From: Xanthomarina sp. F1114
Lineage (GTDB): Bacteria > Bacteroidota > Bacteroidia > Flavobacteriales > Flavobacteriaceae
Direction of reading: 5' to 3'
DNA length: 41,326 bases
NCBI RefSeq assembly: GCF_026410255.1
Contig: NZ_JAPMLL010000020.1
Coordinates: 1 to 41,326, forward strand
The notes below the pieces were generated by a model, which saw only the letters and a program-made list of their open reading frames with translations, was not told where the DNA came from and did no database searches. Within the stretch, counting starts at the first letter, position 1, and each line of letters opens with the position of its first letter. The position numbers were made by a program, and so were the translations under genes. Below, piece after piece: positions 1-35,309 of this stretch.

Positions 1-272
1 AACTCACAACAGATAACTCACAACATACAACTCACAACAGATACCTCACAACAGATAACTCACAACAGATAACTCACAACAGATAACTCACAACAGATAA
101 CTCACAACAGATAACTCACAACAGATAACTCACAACATACAACTCACAACATACAACTCATAACATACACATCCCTCATACCTAATACCCAACCTCTAAC
201 AACTCACCACTAACAACTAACCACTCACAACTCACCACTCACAACTCACAACTCACAACTCACCACTAACCC
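1..272. repeat. Heptamer tandem array downstream of the ABC-F gene
   Basis: Positions 1-168 are twelve 14-bp units, each made of two 7-mers (mainly AACTCAC + AACAGAT, with AACATAC variants). From 175 to 272 fourteen further 7-mers follow in one register (CTCACAA, CTCACCA, CTAACAA and similar). The last unit, CTAACCC, contains the complement of the ABC-F stop codon, so the array runs directly into the gene end. It probably continues left of the window. It is the same class of array as those at 5502, 10932, 11475, 28331 and 35226, but with different words. Confidence 0.9.
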
Positions 273-3028: not shown

Positions 3029-5503
3029 ATGGCAGAATACGAATACGACGATGTAGAGCAGAGCGAAGGTGGGAGTATCAACTTCGATTTTAAAGGGTAT
3101 TTATTTAAAGTATTAAACCTCTGGAAGTTTGTTTTGGCATGCATTGGGGTGGCGCTTATTATAGCCTATCTCATTAATGTTAGAAAGCAAAACGTCTATA
3201 AATTAGACTCTTTGATTTCCGTTGAAAACGATCAAAATCCTTTTTTTACAGCAAATACCAGCATATCTTTTAACTGGGGAGGGGTGTCTGGAAAAATGGG
3301 AAAAACCATTACTACCCTGCAAACCCGTACACATAATGAGAAGGTTGTAGATTCCTTAAAATCTTATATGAACTATTTTGTAGAGGGAAAATATCGCAAA
3401 ATAGATGTCTATACAGATGCGCCTTTTATTTTTGAGCTGGATAAATCCAAACCACAAGTATTGGGACAGTTTATCGGGATTCGCTTCTTGTCTAGCAACA
3501 GCTTTGAGGTCTTTACAGAGTTTAGTTCAGAAAGAGGTTCTGGTCAGCGTTACGATACCAAAGAGCGTCTCCCCGTAGATCTTCCTGTGGGTACCTTTAC
3601 AAAAGAATATCAAATAGGTCAAAAAATAGATTTACCCTTCTTTCAGGGTGTGGTCCAATTAAGAAACGACCGACCTATTAAACCGGGGGTGGAGTTTTTT
3701 ATGCAGTTCAGTAATTTCGATGGCATTGTAAATGGCTATAAGCATGGTATTGGAGTCAAGCCTTATAGCAACGCTTCGGCTTCTGTTTTGGTTTTATCTC
3801 TAGCTGGGAATAACAAGAAGAAAATAGTAGATTATTTAAATACCACAGCTGTTATTTTAAGTGAAACGGAATTGGAACGTAAAAACTTATACGCTACCAA
3901 TACCATCAAGTTTATAGACAGTAGTCTGGCTGCTGTTAATACCAACTTAAAAGATTTTGGAGAGGAGATGAATACCTTCCGAAAGCAAAATAAAGTCTTT
4001 GATGTATCTACAGAAATGACCGAGGTTTCCAACAAACTTCGGGAATTAGAATCTCAAAAGGAGGTCGAGCAATCCAAATTGGATTATTTAGATGCTCTAG
4101 AAACCTATTTACGCACTAAAACGGACTATACAGGCATTGCAGCTCCCAGCTCCGTGGGGATTGAGGAGTCGAATATTATGACTTCCGTATCAAAAATTAC
4201 GAGCCTGGCCATTGAGCGTCAGAGTTTGGAATATACCACCAGAGAGAATTCAGATATTTTTAAAGATATAGACAGACGTATTGACGCCGAAAAGAATGTG
4301 CTTTTGGAAACGATAGCAGCTACAAAAAGCACCATTCGCACGCTAATGAATACCCTGCAGCGTAATATGGCTATCTCTGAAGCTAAATTAAGCGACTTGC
4401 CAGAGAACCAGCAGGAGTTTTTAAAGATTCAGCGTAAGTTAGATATCTCTCAAGAGGCCTATAACTTATATATGGATAAACGCAGTGAGGCTGCCATTGT
4501 AAAAGCGGCTAATATTTCGGATATCAGTATTATAGACGAAGCTAAAGATATTGGGGGTGGCTTGATAGGGCCTAATAAGTCCTTAAATTATATGATGGGA
4601 CTCATGCTGGGATTCTTTATTCCTATGTTCCTTATTTTTGTCATCTTTCTGCTGGATCATACCATTCATGGGTCCGATGAGGTGGTGCGTCTTTCAAAAA
4701 TTCCTATTATCGGACTTATTGGAAAATACCGTTACCACAACAATCTGGTTGTTTTCGAAAAACCGAAGTCGGCCGTAGCAGAATCCTTTCGTTCCATTCG
4801 TTCCAGTTTGCAGTTTGTACTTAATAAAACACCCCGGGAAGGCGGAAGAACCATTCTGGTAACCTCTTCAGTATCAGGAGAAGGTAAGACATTTTGTTCC
4901 ATTAATACGGCCACGGTATATGCGCTAAGTGGAAAAAAAACAATACTTTTGGGACTGGATTTACGGAAACCTAAGATTTTTGACGATTTCGGACTGTCTA
5001 ACGACAATGGAATGGTAAACTATTTAATTGGCGAGAAGCCTTTTGAAGAAGTGAAATATGCTACTCACATCGAAAATTTAGATGTGGCCTCAGCAGGACC
5101 TATTCCTCCAAACCCGTCCGAATTATTAATGAGTCCGTTGTTGACAGAGCTTATTGAAAAACTGCGTCAGGAATATGATATTATTGTATTAGATACACCA
5201 CCTTTAGGTTTGGTGACTGATGCTTTGGAACTGGTAAAATATGCAGATACCTCTATATTTATGATTCGTTTGGACTATACCAAAAAGGGCATGTTACAAC
5301 TTATTAATGCGAAGTATCGCGGAGGGGAAGTTAAAAATATTCATTTTATACTAAACTTCTATAAGCATAAAACCAATCATAATTACGGCTATGGTTATGG
5401 CTACGGATATGGCTATGGTTACGGCGTGTATGGAAATGCCTATCATGAAGATGGAAAACAAACCTGGCTAAAGAAAATTAAGGCCTTTTTGAGGAAGATA
5501 TAG
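3029..5503 (+). CDS. Wzc-like polysaccharide co-polymerase and tyrosine autokinase
   Basis: Inner-membrane chain-length regulator fused to a BY-kinase, 824 aa. The first membrane segment is at about residues 31-50, the second at about 522-546, with a long periplasmic coiled-coil region between. The cytoplasmic kinase has Walker A SVSGEGKT (about 614-621), Walker A' LLGLDLRKPK and Walker B IIVLDTPP (about 718-725). The C-terminus (about 785-805) has nine tyrosines in a Tyr-Gly run, the expected autophosphorylation cluster. The kinase is expected to cycle phosphorylation during export with the preceding Wza-like protein. The stop codon TAG overlaps the first unit of the heptamer array that follows. 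Confidence 0.95.
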   Translation: MAEYEYDDVEQSEGGSINFDFKGYLFKVLNLWKFVLACIGVALIIAYLINVRKQNVYKLDSLISVENDQNPFFTANTSISFNWGGVSGKMGKTITTLQTRTHNEKVVDSLKSYMNYFVEGKYRKIDVYTDAPFIFELDKSKPQVLGQFIGIRFLSSNSFEVFTEFSSERGSGQRYDTKERLPVDLPVGTFTKEYQIGQKIDLPFFQGVVQLRNDRPIKPGVEFFMQFSNFDGIVNGYKHGIGVKPYSNASASVLVLSLAGNNKKKIVDYLNTTAVILSETELERKNLYATNTIKFIDSSLAAVNTNLKDFGEEMNTFRKQNKVFDVSTEMTEVSNKLRELESQKEVEQSKLDYLDALETYLRTKTDYTGIAAPSSVGIEESNIMTSVSKITSLAIERQSLEYTTRENSDIFKDIDRRIDAEKNVLLETIAATKSTIRTLMNTLQRNMAISEAKLSDLPENQQEFLKIQRKLDISQEAYNLYMDKRSEAAIVKAANISDISIIDEAKDIGGGLIGPNKSLNYMMGLMLGFFIPMFLIFVIFLLDHTIHGSDEVVRLSKIPIIGLIGKYRYHNNLVVFEKPKSAVAESFRSIRSSLQFVLNKTPREGGRTILVTSSVSGEGKTFCSINTATVYALSGKKTILLGLDLRKPKIFDDFGLSNDNGMVNYLIGEKPFEEVKYATHIENLDVASAGPIPPNPSELLMSPLLTELIEKLRQEYDIIVLDTPPLGLVTDALELVKYADTSIFMIRLDYTKKGMLQLINAKYRGGEVKNIHFILNFYKHKTNHNYGYGYGYGYGYGYGVYGNAYHEDGKQTWLKKIKAFLRKI

Positions 5504-5557
5504 GTGTTAGGTATGAGGTGTGAGGTGTTAGGTATGAGGTATGAGGTATGAGGTATG
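5502..5557. repeat. Heptamer array (AGGTATG words) at the Wzc-like stop codon
   Basis: Eight consecutive 7-mers in one register (AGGTGTT, AGGTATG, AGGTGTG). The first overlaps the TAG stop of the upstream gene and the last merges into the first copy of the 59-bp repeat. A second short run of the same words lies at about 5733-5768. Confidence 0.88.
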
Positions 5558-5827
5558 AGAAGCCAGTTGGAAGCTCTGCGAAAATCTGCGTCATCTGCGG
5601 GAAATTGATAGGTATGAGAAGCCCGTTGGAAGCTCTGCGAGAATCTGCGTCATCTGCGGGAAATTGAGAGGTTTGAGAAGCCGGTTGAAAGCTCTGCGAA
5701 AATCTGCGTCATCTGCGGGAAATTGATAGGTTTGAGGAATTAGGGATGAGGTATGAGGTATGAGGTATGAGAAGCCCGTTGGAAGCTCTGCGAGAATCTG
5801 CGTCATCTGCGGGGAATTGATAGACAT
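5557..5827. repeat. 59-bp direct repeat, four copies
   Basis: Units begin at 5557, 5616 and 5675 (exact 59-bp spacing) and at 5769 after a 35-bp heptamer insert. Each contains GAAGCTCTGCG, then AATCTGCGTCATCTGCGGG, then AATTGA. Copies differ at a few positions (GCCAG/GCCCG/GCCGG; GCGAAAA/GCGAGAA). With the AT-rich stretch 5828-5964 this fills the 461-bp gap before the tviB-like gene; I see no gene in it. Confidence 0.9.
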
Positions 5828-7596: not shown

Positions 7597-7854
7597 ATGA
7601 AGCCAGGTTTCACATACATACTCACAAGCAAAAACAACACCACCTTATATGTGGGAGTTACTTCTAACCTTGTGCTGCGTGTGAAACAACACAAAGAAAA
7701 ACACAACCCAAAATCGTTTACTGCAAGATATAATTTGGATAAACTCGTGTATTTTGAAGCTTATCACATGATTGGTGATGCCATAGGCAGAGAAAAACAA
7801 TTAAAAGCAGGACGTAGAGCACAAAAAGTGAATTTGATAGCGGGTTTGGAGTAG
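7597..7854 (+). CDS. GIY-YIG domain endonuclease-like small protein
   Basis: 85 aa, single GIY-YIG domain of the YhbQ/UPF0213 type. The motif appears as YILTSKNNTTLYVGVTSN (the GIY and YIG halves are YIL and YVG), followed by an Arg in the helix (LRVKQHK) and a Glu in AIGREKQLKAGRR. Family members in Bacteroidota usually end with a further NPEW-DL type segment; this one stops after NLIAGLE, so the C-terminus looks about 10 residues short. It is flanked by an inverted repeat on the left and a CAAAC/GTTTG-ended composite repeat on the right and has no obvious role in glycan synthesis. Activity is uncertain. Confidence 0.85.
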   Translation: MKPGFTYILTSKNNTTLYVGVTSNLVLRVKQHKEKHNPKSFTARYNLDKLVYFEAYHMIGDAIGREKQLKAGRRAQKVNLIAGLE

Positions 7855-9795: not shown

Positions 9796-9868
9796 TTTTT
9801 CTACCCACTACCCGCCAGCCTGTCCGTAGCAAAAGCAAAGGCAGGTAGTATTTTCCTAGGTACGGGCT

Positions 9869-9963
9869 GGTTGCTATACGGACAGGTTGCTATACGGGCA
9901 GGTCGCTGTACGGACAGGTTGTTATACGGACAGGTCGCTGTACGGACAGGTCGCGACCTGTCC
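9869..9963. repeat. 16-bp tandem repeat ending in a perfect 20-bp palindrome
   Basis: Five 16-bp units (for example GGTCGCTGTACGGACA and GGTTGCTATACGGACA) at 9869, 9885, 9901, 9917 and 9933, then a divergent unit. The end, 9944-9963, is a perfect palindrome, GGACAGGTCGCGACCTGTCC. A CCTGTCCGTAGC copy of the word on the opposite strand lies at about 9810. Reading frames over this stretch are repeat-derived and not credible genes. It occupies the gap 9587-10064 together with the unit at 9658. Confidence 0.85.
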
Positions 9964-10931: not shown

Positions 10932-11078
10932 GTTGTGAGTTGTGAGTTGTCCGTTGTGAGTTGTCCGTTGTGAGTTGTCCGACAACCGAACACCGACAAC
11001 AGACAACCGAAAACAGACAACCGACAACAGACAACCGACAACCGAACACCGAACACCGAACACCGACAACAGAGAACC
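10932..11078. repeat. Heptamer array with strand-switched arms
   Basis: Exactly 21 consecutive 7-mers. The first seven (10932-10980) are GTTGTGA/GTTGTCC words; the next fourteen (10981-11078) are GACAACC/GAACACC/GACAACA words, close to the reverse complement. The arms meet at GTTGTCCGACAAC, so the array can fold on itself. It starts 4 bases after the wzm-like stop codon. Confidence 0.92.
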
Positions 11079-11110: not shown

Positions 11111-11470
11111 ATGAAATCATACAGAGATCTAGATGTTTATAATTTAGCATTTGATTATGCCTTGGAAGTGCATCATGTTTCTTTAAAACTACCAAAGTTT
11201 GAATTATACGAACAAGGAAGTCAAGTAAGACGTTCCTCCAAAAGTGTTAAAGATAATATTGTTGAAGGATACGGCAGACGACGCTATAAACAAGACTTTA
11301 TAAAATTTTTAGTTTACGCACATGCCTCATTATTGGAATGTGTCTCTCAATTAGAAATGATTCAAAAATTATATCCAGAATTAGAAACAGACGATTTGTT
11401 GACTAAATATGATATTTTAGGAGCAAAATTGTTCAAGTTTATAATGTATGTAGAAAAAGAGTGGAAGTGA
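11111..11470 (+). CDS. Four-helix-bundle protein (23S rRNA intervening-sequence type)
   Basis: 119 aa, predicted all-helical. MKSYRDLDVYNLAFDYALEV, then SQVRRSSKSVKDNIVEGYGR and KDFIKFLVYAHASLLE-like sequence, match the family first found inside 23S rRNA intervening sequences and related to the Avd accessory protein of diversity-generating retroelements. Function is unknown for free-standing copies. It separates wzm-like and wzt-like genes, which normally adjoin, and is bracketed by two heptamer arrays, so it looks inserted. The start is ATG. No reverse transcriptase or template repeat accompanies it. Confidence 0.88.
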   Translation: MKSYRDLDVYNLAFDYALEVHHVSLKLPKFELYEQGSQVRRSSKSVKDNIVEGYGRRRYKQDFIKFLVYAHASLLECVSQLEMIQKLYPELETDDLLTKYDILGAKLFKFIMYVEKEWK

Positions 11471-11474
11471 TTCC

Positions 11475-11677
<203 letters not shown>

Positions 11678-11682
11678 AGAAA

Positions 11683-27155: not shown

Positions 27156-28325
27156 TTGTTGGAAAAACCCTTAAAAATTGCTATTTATTCTGGAGAAATT
27201 CCTAGTACTACTTTTATTGAGCGTCTCATAAAAGGCATTGCAGATTCTGGATCAGAGGTGCTTCTTTTTGGGGCGGTAAAAAAGAAAATCAATTATCAGC
27301 CTAGAGTTAAAGTAGTAGCTTATAAACATTCACAAATGTCTAAGTTCTGGCACTTATTAAAGTTTACGACTTTATTGGTCTTGTTTAAACCAGCAGAAAA
27401 AAAACGATTAGACAGTTATTTGAAGCATCAAAAACGGAACGATTTATATACTAAAGTAAAGTGCTATCCGGTGCTGTGGTATCAACCCAATGTGTTTCAT
27501 GTGCAATGGGCTAAAGGCATTGACGATTGGATGTGGGTGCAAGACTTTAATATAAAATTGGTATTAAGTTTAAGAGGCGCCCATATTAATTATTCGCCAA
27601 TTGCCAATTCCAAGTTGGCTGCTATGTATAGAAAGAACTTTCCTAAAGTGGATGGTTTTCATGCTGTTTCTAGGGCTATTGGATTAGAAGCTGAAAAGTA
27701 TGCTGCTCCTAAAGAAAACATACATGTGGTGTATAGTGGGTTGCCTATTGTCAAAGACCTACGGACTCCCAAGAAAGAAAATACAGTTTTTAAAATAATT
27801 TCTGTTGGCAGATCACATTGGAAAAAAGGTTATACTTACGCTTTAGATGCCTGTAAATTATTAAAAGATTCAGGTTTAGATTTTCATTATACAATAGTTG
27901 GAGGTGCAACCGATATTGAATTTGCTTACCAAATAAATGACCTCGATCTCTCAAATCAAGTTACACTTTTAGACCGACTCCCTTATAATAAGGTTCAATA
28001 CTTAATTATGAACTCAGATTCACTTCTATTGCCTAGCGTTGAAGAAGGTATTGCTAACGTCGTATTGGAAGCCATGGCCTTAGGAACTTTAGTTGTAAGT
28101 ACAGCTTGTGGAGGCATGGCAGAGGTGGTGATTCCAAAGCAAACAGGGTTTTTAGTACCTGTACGGGATGCACAGGCGATGGCACAGGCATTAAAAGAGG
28201 TGTCTGAATTGACTGGGGAACCCTATCAAAACATCACACAGCAAGCCAGAGCGTTTATAGGAACCCATCATAATGAGGAGCAAATGGTTAAAGGGATGCA
28301 GGAATTATATGAAAGCTTAAATTGA
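27156..28325 (+). CDS. GT4 family glycosyltransferase
   Basis: 389 aa. FHVQWAKGIDDWMW and LSLRGAHINYSPIA in the N-terminal domain, then ISVGRSHWKKGYTYALDACK, VTLLDRLPYNKVQYL and EEGIANVVLEAMALGTLVV (EX7E at about 297-305) in the C-terminal domain. The N-terminal domain resembles the enzymes at 14878 and 28618 (LRG/FRG loop), suggesting these three are paralogues. Start is one of two adjacent TTG codons (27156 or 27159). Donor unknown. The stop is followed after 5 bases by a long heptamer array. Confidence 0.9.
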   Translation: MLEKPLKIAIYSGEIPSTTFIERLIKGIADSGSEVLLFGAVKKKINYQPRVKVVAYKHSQMSKFWHLLKFTTLLVLFKPAEKKRLDSYLKHQKRNDLYTKVKCYPVLWYQPNVFHVQWAKGIDDWMWVQDFNIKLVLSLRGAHINYSPIANSKLAAMYRKNFPKVDGFHAVSRAIGLEAEKYAAPKENIHVVYSGLPIVKDLRTPKKENTVFKIISVGRSHWKKGYTYALDACKLLKDSGLDFHYTIVGGATDIEFAYQINDLDLSNQVTLLDRLPYNKVQYLIMNSDSLLLPSVEEGIANVVLEAMALGTLVVSTACGGMAEVVIPKQTGFLVPVRDAQAMAQALKEVSELTGEPYQNITQQARAFIGTHHNEEQMVKGMQELYESLN

Positions 28326-28330
28326 GTGGC

Positions 28331-28554
28331 GATTAACGATTAAAGAATGATGAATAAAGAATGATGAATACCGAATGATAATTGGCGATTAATGAATTAA
28401 GATTAAAGAATTACATTTAACAACTAACAACTAACAACTAACAACTAACAACTAACATTTAACAACTAACAACTAACAACTAACATTTAACAACTAACAA
28501 CTAACAACTAAAAACTAAAAACTAAAAACTAACGATTGAAGATTGACGATTGAA
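28331..28554. repeat. 32-unit heptamer array with changing words
   Basis: Exactly 32 consecutive 7-mers. It opens with GATTAAC, GATTAAA, GAATGAT, GAATAAA and GAATACC words, passes to ATTTAAC and AACTAAC (with ATTTAAC every fourth to sixth unit), then AACTAAA, and closes with GATTGAA and GATTGAC. The 7-bp register never slips although the word changes completely. It fills most of the 292-bp gap between two GT4 genes. Confidence 0.93.
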
Positions 28555-28617
28555 GATTTTGAAGTCTGAATAATGATACTTCAATAATATTAGAACAAAC
28601 CTCTTGCTAATAAATAA

Positions 28618-29826
28618 ATGCGTAAAAAAAAACAACATATCCAACGAATAGGGCTAGTGCTTTCAGCAGTTCCTGGATATTCAGAAACTTTTTTTCGGAA
28701 TAAAATAGCTGGGTTACAAGCTCAGGGTTTTGAGGTGGTTTTATTTGTTACGGATCAATCCGGGAGCATTCCAGATGCTTTTGGTTGTACAGTAATATCA
28801 GCAGCTTCTTTTAAAGGTTCCTTTTGGCGTGTTTTGATTATTAGTGTCTGGACTTTGATAAAAGCATTCTTATTTACGCCAATAAGAAGTTATAAGCATG
28901 TAAAATTAGATGTGGCCGATAATTTCACCTTAAAGCAAAGTTTGAAACGTTTAATTCAAAATGCCTTTTTATTTTCTCAAAATGTGACATGGCTTCATTT
29001 TGGTTTTGGGATGCTTGCCGTAGGAAGAGAAAATGTGGCAGCAGCCATTGCAGCCCAAATGGCGGTGAGTTTTAGAGGCTTTGATTTGTATTTGTCTCCT
29101 TTAAAGCATCCAAATTGTTATAAGCTGCTATTTAAAAAAGAGGTTCGGTATCACGTGCTTTCTAATGAGATGAAACAAGATTTAGTTTCAGAAGGTGTAT
29201 TGGAGTCTGCCATATATGTGATAACTCCAGCTATTGATGTGTCATTCTTTAAATCTAATACCAACCAGTTAACCAGGGAGCTTCAATCTAAAATACAATT
29301 AATAACCGTAGCGCGACTACATTGGATAAAAGGTTTGGAATACACCTTGCAAGCGATGGCCGAATTAAAAAAAGCAGATATTTCTTTTCATTATACCATT
29401 ATTGGAACAGGGGAAGAACGGGAACGACTTATGTTTGCAGCCTATCAATTGGATGTTTTAGATCAGGTAAGCTTTGCTGGGCGATTAGAGCCTGTTGCAG
29501 TTCGAGAACAACTTAAGGTTTCTGATATTTATATACAGTATAGCATACAGGAGGGTTTTGGTAATGCGGTTTTAGAAGCTCAGGCTTTGGGCGTATTATG
29601 TGTTGTATCAGATGCAGATGGTTTACAGGAAAATGTCCTGCACGAAAAAACAGGATGGGTGGTACCTAAACGACAACCAAAATTTTTAGCAGCGCAGATT
29701 AAGGAATTAATAAAACTGACACCCCAGGAGAAAGAACTTATAAGGGGTCGTGCTGTCACTAGAGTTCAACGCAATTTTAACCTGGATAAACAGCAAGATG
29801 AGTTTGTAGCTTTTTATGAAGTCTAG
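28618..29826 (+). CDS. GT4 family glycosyltransferase
   Basis: 402 aa. GLVLSAVPGYSETFFRNKI is a common GT4 opening of this subgroup, and WLHFGFGMLAVG and VSFRGFDLYLSP belong to the acceptor domain. ITVARLHWIKGLEYTLQAM, TIIGTGEERERL and QEGFGNAVLEAQALG (EX7E at about 312-320) form the donor domain. A hydrophobic segment (VLIISVWTLIKAFLF, about 75-90) may associate with the membrane. Starts with ATG after the heptamer array. Sugar unknown. Confidence 0.9.
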   Translation: MRKKKQHIQRIGLVLSAVPGYSETFFRNKIAGLQAQGFEVVLFVTDQSGSIPDAFGCTVISAASFKGSFWRVLIISVWTLIKAFLFTPIRSYKHVKLDVADNFTLKQSLKRLIQNAFLFSQNVTWLHFGFGMLAVGRENVAAAIAAQMAVSFRGFDLYLSPLKHPNCYKLLFKKEVRYHVLSNEMKQDLVSEGVLESAIYVITPAIDVSFFKSNTNQLTRELQSKIQLITVARLHWIKGLEYTLQAMAELKKADISFHYTIIGTGEERERLMFAAYQLDVLDQVSFAGRLEPVAVREQLKVSDIYIQYSIQEGFGNAVLEAQALGVLCVVSDADGLQENVLHEKTGWVVPKRQPKFLAAQIKELIKLTPQEKELIRGRAVTRVQRNFNLDKQQDEFVAFYEV

Positions 29827-35205: not shown

Positions 35206-35225
35206 ATAAAATACATAGAAAAAAC

Positions 35226-35309
35226 CGACAACAGATAACCGACAACCGACAACCGATAACCGACAACCGATAACCGATAACTGATAACCGACAACCGACA
35301 ATCGATAAC
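35226..35309. repeat. Heptamer array abutting a GTG start codon
   Basis: Twelve 7-mers (CGACAAC, AGATAAC, CGATAAC, TGATAAC, CGACAAT) in one register end at 35309; the GTG start of the next gene is at 35311. The array thus replaces the whole leader of that gene. Words are nearly the same as at 11475. Confidence 0.92.

Follow-up and report, generated by a model that had tools for sequence, protein, structure and literature searches.

Heptanucleotide tandem arrays with drifting words at gene junctions of Xanthomarina and other Flavobacteriaceae

The window and its arrays

The window, by which we mean the whole stretch of 41,326 nucleotides analysed here from Xanthomarina sp. F1114, belongs to a gene cluster for the synthesis and export of polysaccharide; families were assigned to eight of its proteins by domain search and to the rest by reading of the translations. 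The cluster contains a poly-export protein, a wzc-like protein, an ABC transporter pair, for which we use the names wzm and wzt, and many glycosyltransferases. Two glycosyltransferase genes of the Glycos_transf_1 family, both on the plus strand (27156..28325 and 28618..29826), are separated by a gap of 292 nt, and in this gap lies the focal heptamer array (28331..28558). The stop codon of the upstream gene ends 5 nt before it. An earlier note on this DNA had read positions 28331-28554 as 32 exact heptamers in a single frame, and our parsing confirmed this. Along the array the words drift from GAATGAT-type through AACTAAC-type to GATTGAA-type (AATGATG-, ACTAACA- and ATTGAAG-type in the same frame). 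The strand composition is mixed, with the C-rich AACTAAC words in the middle, and none of the words carries a GGG run. We found no RNA hairpin in the focal gap (fold z -0.18) and no ORF of at least 80 aa.

Heptamer arrays were also verified at every other site named before (1-272, 5502-5557, 10932-11078, 11475-11677 and 35226-35309), some with slightly different limits, and one more was added. The array at 1..272 is built from a 14-nt higher-order unit, AACTCACAACAGAT, followed by ACCACTAACAACTC, and reaches the stop codon of a minus-strand ABC-F gene; the contig starts within it, which would be expected if short-read assemblies break at arrays. An AGGTATG array (5502..5559) begins at the stop codon of the wzc-like gene. 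The second AGGTATG array (5728..5771), absent from the earlier list, lies past a 59-bp repeat and has one unit with GGG. This 59-bp tandem repeat (5551-5736), with CTCTGCGAAAATCTGCGTCATCTGCGGGAAA, is framed on both sides by AGGTATG heptamers, and its unit includes the heptamer edge. From 3 nt past the wzm stop codon runs a bipartite array (10932..11078) of GTTGTGA/GTTGTCC words and then CCGACAA words, which gives a long regular hairpin in the RNA fold (z -5.57; 0 of 200 shuffles as good). It is followed by a plus-strand gene of the PF05635 family (23S rRNA-intervening sequence protein; 11111..11470, E 4e-23), which thus has an array on each side. The second bipartite array (11475..11680) consists of a short G/T-rich part, the palindrome TCTGTTAACAGA and a long AACCGAC/AACAGAC part that reaches the wzt start codon; its fold z is -3.44, again with 0 of 200 shuffles as good. 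Finally, an AACCGAC/AACCGAT array (35223..35309) ends just before the GTG start of the next longest ORF. At the array sites of the window Tandem Repeats Finder returned rows of period 7, 14, 21 and 28, all with 0% indels, and showed higher-order units of 14 and 21 nt. No array of the window reaches into a main gene, apart from overlaps of a few bases with stop codons. Elsewhere in the window we noted 16-bp repeats of TACGGACAGGTTGCTA type (9861-9951) and an ORF of the GIY-YIG family (7597-7854).

Period, insertion and growth of the arrays

A scan of the window over lags 2-30 (42-nt windows, 72% identity) found 875 nt of self-similarity at lag 7, in 7 segments, as well as at the multiples 14, 21 and 28; otherwise only one segment, at lag 16, appeared. 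The shuffled window had no long self-similarity (one mononucleotide shuffle each for lags 6, 7, 8 and 14). Arrays with a score of at least 18 occupy 5 of the 23 gaps of the window, compared with 3 of 201 in 20 other stretches of the same genome (Fisher p = 3.4e-4); these stretches cover 370,572 of 3,250,511 bases, many at contig starts, and are not a random draw. Within its own genome the array enrichment is thus local to the window. The pooled intergenic autocorrelation of the window is 0.357 at lag 7 versus 0.293 at lag 6 and 0.284 at lag 8. It falls to 0.324 versus 0.308 and 0.303 in 70 polysaccharide-cluster loci, and the own-genome sample shows hardly any excess (0.306 versus 0.305 and 0.302). 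When the array gaps are left out, the lag-7 excess disappears, so that the period is confined to discrete arrays and no pervasive 7-nt periodicity exists outside them. The lag-7 autocorrelation check that the earlier note had proposed is therefore positive for array-bearing gaps only.

The period is specific. Among 552 gaps from the 70 loci around a wzm gene, 32 hold a strong lag-7 array (score of at least 18), compared with 0, 0, 3, 3, 2, 1 and 5 strong gaps at lags 4, 5, 6, 8, 9, 10 and 11, respectively. Four copies of the core AGTGA occur at a spacing of 7 in 69 of 299 Flavobacteriaceae genomes, while the separate control searches at spacings 6 and 8 gave 0 and 6 genomes. The AACNNAC pattern was found in 12 of 40 genomes searched, our own included, and in six of the seven other genomes of the genus; all six are at least 90% complete, and the seventh, which is without the pattern, is 75% complete. 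Because arrays occur also in single-contig genomes (G108, G144, G021), an assembly artefact is an unlikely source. The excess of a 7-nt tandem unit over other unit lengths, the intergenic location at several loci of one genome and the close likeness of neighbouring units described below, which points to local duplication as the origin, are all observed here and place the arrays among the heptanucleotide long simple sequence repeats.

We next turn to the junctions themselves. The upstream focal glycosyltransferase was sought in 199 genomes of the family, and 12 loci, the window among them, were read. In 6 of the 11 other loci (L317-L322) the two genes abut or overlap (-14 to +13 nt); here a second glycosyltransferase match lies directly downstream, its start was likened to that of the window gene by eye, and starts were taken from the longest ORF. 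A seventh locus (L315) has a 111-nt gap with its own lag-7 array (score 16.5) that runs from the stop codon and uses a different word. The remaining four (L316, L323, L324, L325) carry other sequence at the junction, with weak lag 7 in L325 only (score 13). The closed junction in six relatives and the different word in the seventh show that the arrays are insertions born in place. Of 21 array gaps, 8 of them wzm-wzt gaps, 19 are longer than the median of orthologous gaps that lack an array. The median excess of 104.5 nt surpasses the median array of 56 nt, meaning that other DNA was added too. The words differ between species: at the wzm-wzt junction different array words are found in Winogradskyella, Bizionia, Lacinutrix and Flavobacterium species, and in many Flavobacterium species this junction is without an array.

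How the arrays grow can be read from their units. Units were compared in 42 arrays with 12 or more units each, and 36 of these arrays hold at least three different units; 36 of the 42 contribute at short distances and 22 at a distance of 12 units. The identity is 0.80 between neighbours and declines to 0.55 at 12 units apart, while shuffling of the unit order gives 0.62-0.68. The 42 long arrays comprise 30 canonical words, so that there is no single fixed heptamer of the TAACTGA type. For 40 of the 42 arrays the phase of the two halves could be compared unambiguously; it was kept in 33 and shifted in 7, a tally biased to the kept phase by the selection of arrays on their lag-7 score. The previous claim that the word changes and the phase does not is hence correct for 33 of the 40 and fails for seven. 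Since substitutions leave the phase unshifted, repeated local slippage plus point mutation gives drifting blocks of words, and a single word per array would be expected only if the array were very young. The argument that simple slippage predicts one word per array was accordingly mistaken, as the decay of unit identity with distance is what local duplication and point mutation predict.

Our preferred reading, to which we give a probability of about 80%, is that the arrays are heptanucleotide tandem repeats that are born at gene junctions, grow by local duplication in 7-base steps, most likely by slippage, and diverge by point mutation. An array would arise in place at a junction, often right at the stop codon, and would lengthen by local duplication of seven bases at a time, for which polymerase slippage is the most likely source. 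Point mutations would make the units diverge, by which the word would drift while the phase would mostly stay. Purifying selection at the gene edges (G-poor leaders, perhaps C-poor 3' ends) would then filter which strand survives. In this scheme we infer both slippage as the enzyme-level cause and purifying selection as the strand filter. The focal array is a heptanucleotide repeat of the known kind, derived from local 7-base duplication and mutation at a gene junction, and its likeliest state is that of tolerated, fast-turnover spacer DNA.

Two causes had been put forward in the earlier note, copying in 7-base steps or selection on the period. The first is backed by the counts for spacings 7, 6 and 8 (69, 0 and 6 of 299 genomes), while the second is not needed. 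Additionally, the length differences between orthologous gaps are not enriched in multiples of 7 (7 of 53 pairs with arrays in both gaps, 56 of 376 pairs with an array in either) in a comparison between species, with one genome per species, that left out equal lengths and differences of 500 or more. Indels of other sizes may add to these differences, or the species may be too distant from each other. In a post hoc comparison, three Winogradskyella wzm-wzt gaps of 71, 78 and 190 nt differ by multiples of 7, and the fourth (135 nt) is off by one extra base. Local duplication leaves unexplained why seven is chosen over 5, 6 or 8. We think that the system is a good test bed for why seven is a favoured bacterial repeat unit, given that one site keeps the period but changes the word from one related species to the next, and is closed in yet other species.

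Among the closest known systems are the STRR repeats of filamentous cyanobacteria, which are heptanucleotide repeats. For the heptameric long simple sequence repeats of prokaryotes (Mrazek 2007, as cited in the accessible parts of PMC4679880 and PMC4692102), the seven-base unit is given as the most abundant, slippage is proposed, and 7 nt is suggested as a polymerase contact length. The present arrays share the seven-base unit with both systems and differ in having many related words per genome, even per array, and in being concentrated in the polysaccharide cluster. Contrary to the earlier supposition that such a system is undescribed in Flavobacteriaceae, heptamer arrays of this family are already in print. 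The available text of MacGregor 2015 (PMC4679880) describes TAACTGA arrays in Beggiatoaceae, Cyanobacteria and some Bacteroidetes, reports heptamer arrays in Gramella, Aequorivita and Elizabethkingia, with other heptamers in the same gaps, and mentions 7-nt indels between two Cyanothece strains. Like ours, those arrays are heptameric, intergenic and oriented relative to start codons, and again an array in one species faces a shorter gap without obvious repeats in a relative (Gramella, Aequorivita). As far as that text goes, the survey followed one word, whereas the present arrays have drifting words and are anchored mainly at stop codons.

Gene edges and the strand rule

The arrays are anchored at stop codons. 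In 30 of 49 co-directional array gaps the best array begins within 10 nt of the upstream stop codon, where 9.3 are expected and the maximum in 2000 placements was 17. Array ends near start codons showed no clear enrichment in the same gaps (15 of 49; 9.2 expected; maximum 18 in 2000 placements). The stop codon as a seed of the array is not supported: the modal residue of the array stop triplets relative to the stop codon was 0 in 11 and 6 in 12 of 48 cases.

The arrays are also polar. Over the sampled genomes, with the two array ends counted apart and several arrays per genome included, G outnumbers C on the sense strand of 55 of 60 stop-touching arrays, and C outnumbers G on that of 22 of 28 start-touching arrays (ATG-only starts; Fisher 6e-11 versus the stop set). 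A narrower count, in which arrays touching both ends were entered at the stop only, gave 51 of 55 and 17 of 19. After removal of the wzm orthologues by BLAST, the sense strand is G-rich in 41 of 45 stop-touching arrays, and 28 of 30 upstream gene families agree. The rule is weaker in pattern-fetched loci, where it holds for 6 of 10 AACNNAC loci judged by hand and for 18 of 22 when AGTGANN loci and other stretches are included. In short, the G-rich strand tends to run outward from whichever gene edge is closest. This is stronger than local duplication alone predicts, because array-free gaps have only a weak skew (+0.07 in the first 40 nt and -0.13 in the last 40).

One may ask whether the arrays are themselves selected sequence, with the start-side strand kept G-poor and unstructured and the stop-side strand kept C-poor, for example against Rho loading, or rich in stops in all frames. 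The polarity at both edges (55 to 5 and 22 to 6), its persistence without wzm orthologues (41 to 4) and its breadth over gene families speak for such selection. So does the finding that 36 of 55 stop-anchored arrays have stops in all three frames within the first 35 nt, for which column-permuted words average 27.7 and 0 of 500 permutations reach 36. With most wzm orthologues removed, however, this excess becomes modest (26 of 44; 10 of 500 permutations reach the count), and some words, for instance AACCGAC or GTTGTCG, are free of stops, so that all-frame stops as the purpose of the arrays have partial support only. Long C-rich arrays such as 11507-11680 exist even though they are predicted to be good Rho sites, and selection would account for the strand, not for the period of 7. 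We consider this reading possible but less likely than not. A telomerase-like or otherwise template-directed extension of DNA ends at gene edges by G-rich heptamers, followed by joining of two ends, would also yield outward G-words with a palindrome at the switch. It fits the outward polarity at both kinds of gene edge and the palindromic switch points in the two bipartite gaps of the window. Against it, most sites have a word of their own (the 42 long arrays comprise 30 canonical words), meaning that there is no common template, and the decay of identity with distance fits local duplication. We regard it as very improbable and keep local 7-base duplication at gene junctions as the preferred origin.

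The strand rule itself has precedent. The same rule appears, in the accessible part of PMC4692102, for quadruplex-forming repeats of two Xanthomonas genomes and one Nostoc genome, where the GGGAATC and GGGGA(T/C)T repeats are strongly biased to the stop codon. Those words form G-quadruplexes with a preferred copy number of four. A run of at least three G in each unit is not a feature of the present arrays: none of the 60 stop-touching arrays has a sense-strand quadruplex motif, and 13 of them contain any GGG. Quadruplexes therefore cannot be the general cause of the strand rule, and since the rule holds for arrays without such motifs, a more general cause must be sought.

PF05635 genes and their flanks

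The PF05635 gene between the two bipartite arrays of the window is not an isolated case. Of 13 PF05635 genes in the sampled loci, 9 are accompanied by an array at most 250 nt away, compared with 111 of 2319 other genes (p 1e-9); the 13 include the window gene, and 8 of them lie in the wzm-wzt junction of different species. Wzm-wzt gaps have an array in 7 of 9 cases with a PF05635 gene and in 14 of 62 without (p 0.002). Searches for genes of this family gave a match in 60 of 80 genomes of Flavobacteriaceae and in 90 of 118 of Bacteroidota. We took the best match of each of the best 30 of the 60 Flavobacteriaceae genomes with a match, which is not a random set, and compared these 30 loci with GIY-YIG controls, for which 25 of 30 loci were kept and 5 dropped for length. 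The mean lag-7 flank score is 12.2 at the PF05635 loci versus 4.1 at the GIY-YIG loci (p 6e-8), and a score of at least 10 is reached by 13 of 30 versus 0 of 25. By junction the 30 loci make up 16 types, one of which is shared by 12 loci; in 9 types at least one locus scores 10 or more. Among operon-internal control genes 33 of 239 reach this score, and the PF05635 loci are higher (p 3e-6).

The flanks are skewed and inverted as well. Upstream of PF05635 genes the skew is +0.42 (G-rich) and downstream -0.30 (C-rich), with +0.01 and +0.06 at the GIY-YIG loci. The two flanks pair with a mean z of -2.1 versus -0.16 in 150 operon control genes (p 4e-7; mononucleotide shuffles), and the inverted-repeat score of 14.9 exceeds the direct-repeat score of 11.5 at the same loci (p 0.015). 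All 30 PF05635 loci have a co-directional upstream neighbour, compared with 22 of 25 GIY-YIG loci. In 26 PF05635 loci of the phylum outside Flavobacteriaceae, a set without control genes, a score of at least 10 is reached at lag 7 in 11, at lag 8 in 2 and at the other lags from 4 to 13 in none; here the inverted score is 15.2 versus 9.9 direct (p 2e-4). The excess at lag 7 is one of averages, as 17 of the 30 and 15 of the 26 loci score below 10.

These loci resemble in their anatomy the intervening sequences (IVS) of 23S rRNA. In the accessible text of PMC4990558 the Coxiella IVS is a selfish element with complementary ends and an S23p ORF in the loop, cleaved by RNase III in vitro; a PF05635-type (S23p) ORF between complementary ends is described for Coxiella and Leptospira, as at many PF05635 loci here. 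Unlike the rRNA elements of that account, the present loci lie in protein operons, and their flanks are often built of heptamers. PF05635 is moreover related to the Avd protein of diversity-generating retroelements, according to the part of PMC10053308 available. Among the matches listed in the open-access literature searched, we found no report of PF05635 genes with flanking repeats outside rRNA. The period-7, inverted flanks in Bacteroidota are thus a lead on this family that may possibly be new.

It follows to ask whether the arrays at large could be stems or ORF-less remnants of IVS-like intercistronic elements, in which a PF05635 gene sits between inverted, heptamer-built flanks that pair in the transcript. 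The proximity counts, the flank scores, the pairing in comparison with operon controls, the loci outside the family and the wzm-wzt gaps would all agree with this. Yet a PF05635 gene lies nearby (about 1.2 kb) at only 2 of 47 distinct array loci, compared with 1 of 351 random 3-kb stretches (p 0.04). The PF05635 link is hence good for the genes and weak for arrays at large, and it does not explain most arrays. The GIY-YIG flanks pair too, without heptamers (mean z -2.04 in 25 Flavobacteriaceae loci), and the inverted score of the PF05635 loci is not significantly above theirs (14.9 versus 12.6, p 0.08). Likewise, lag 7 is not significantly above lag 8 when 4 same-family loci are kept in the phylum set (p 0.08). 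On average, the folding of ORF-less array gaps does not exceed that of control gaps (mean z -0.67 versus -1.00), with z below -2 in 12 of 31 versus 11 of 50 and an inverted-repeat excess at p 0.06. The focal gap has no terminal inverted repeats that form a stem (z -0.18) and no PF05635-family ORF, which sets the focal array apart from the 23S rRNA element as described in the accessible text of PMC4990558, and its locus lies in a polysaccharide cluster. We therefore consider a remnant origin of the arrays unlikely. Similarly doubtful is the wider proposal that PF05635 genes across Bacteroidota are intercistronic relatives of IVS, small elements inserted co-directionally with the gene before them, whose inverted flanks of period 7 (G-words on the upstream side, C-words on the downstream side) would pair around the ORF in the mRNA, that ORF-less arrays including the focal one stem from the same process, and that the outward-G rule seen in three phyla is its footprint. 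Duplication in 7-base steps at gene junctions remains our preferred origin for the arrays.

Two sites of PF05635 genes recur. The wzm-wzt junction is occupied in L094, L096, L101, L128, L129, L130, L134, L140 and the window, with sequence types that are visibly different by eye. At the second site a neighbour gene, which we take to be an acyl-CoA acyltransferase, is common to 12 of the 30 loci (L255, L257, L261, L264-L266, L268, L270, L274, L276-L278). Finally, in the PF05635 flanks of L343 and L327 period-8 arrays replace those of period 7, and the words of L343, of CTTTGTGC type, are inverted around the gene.
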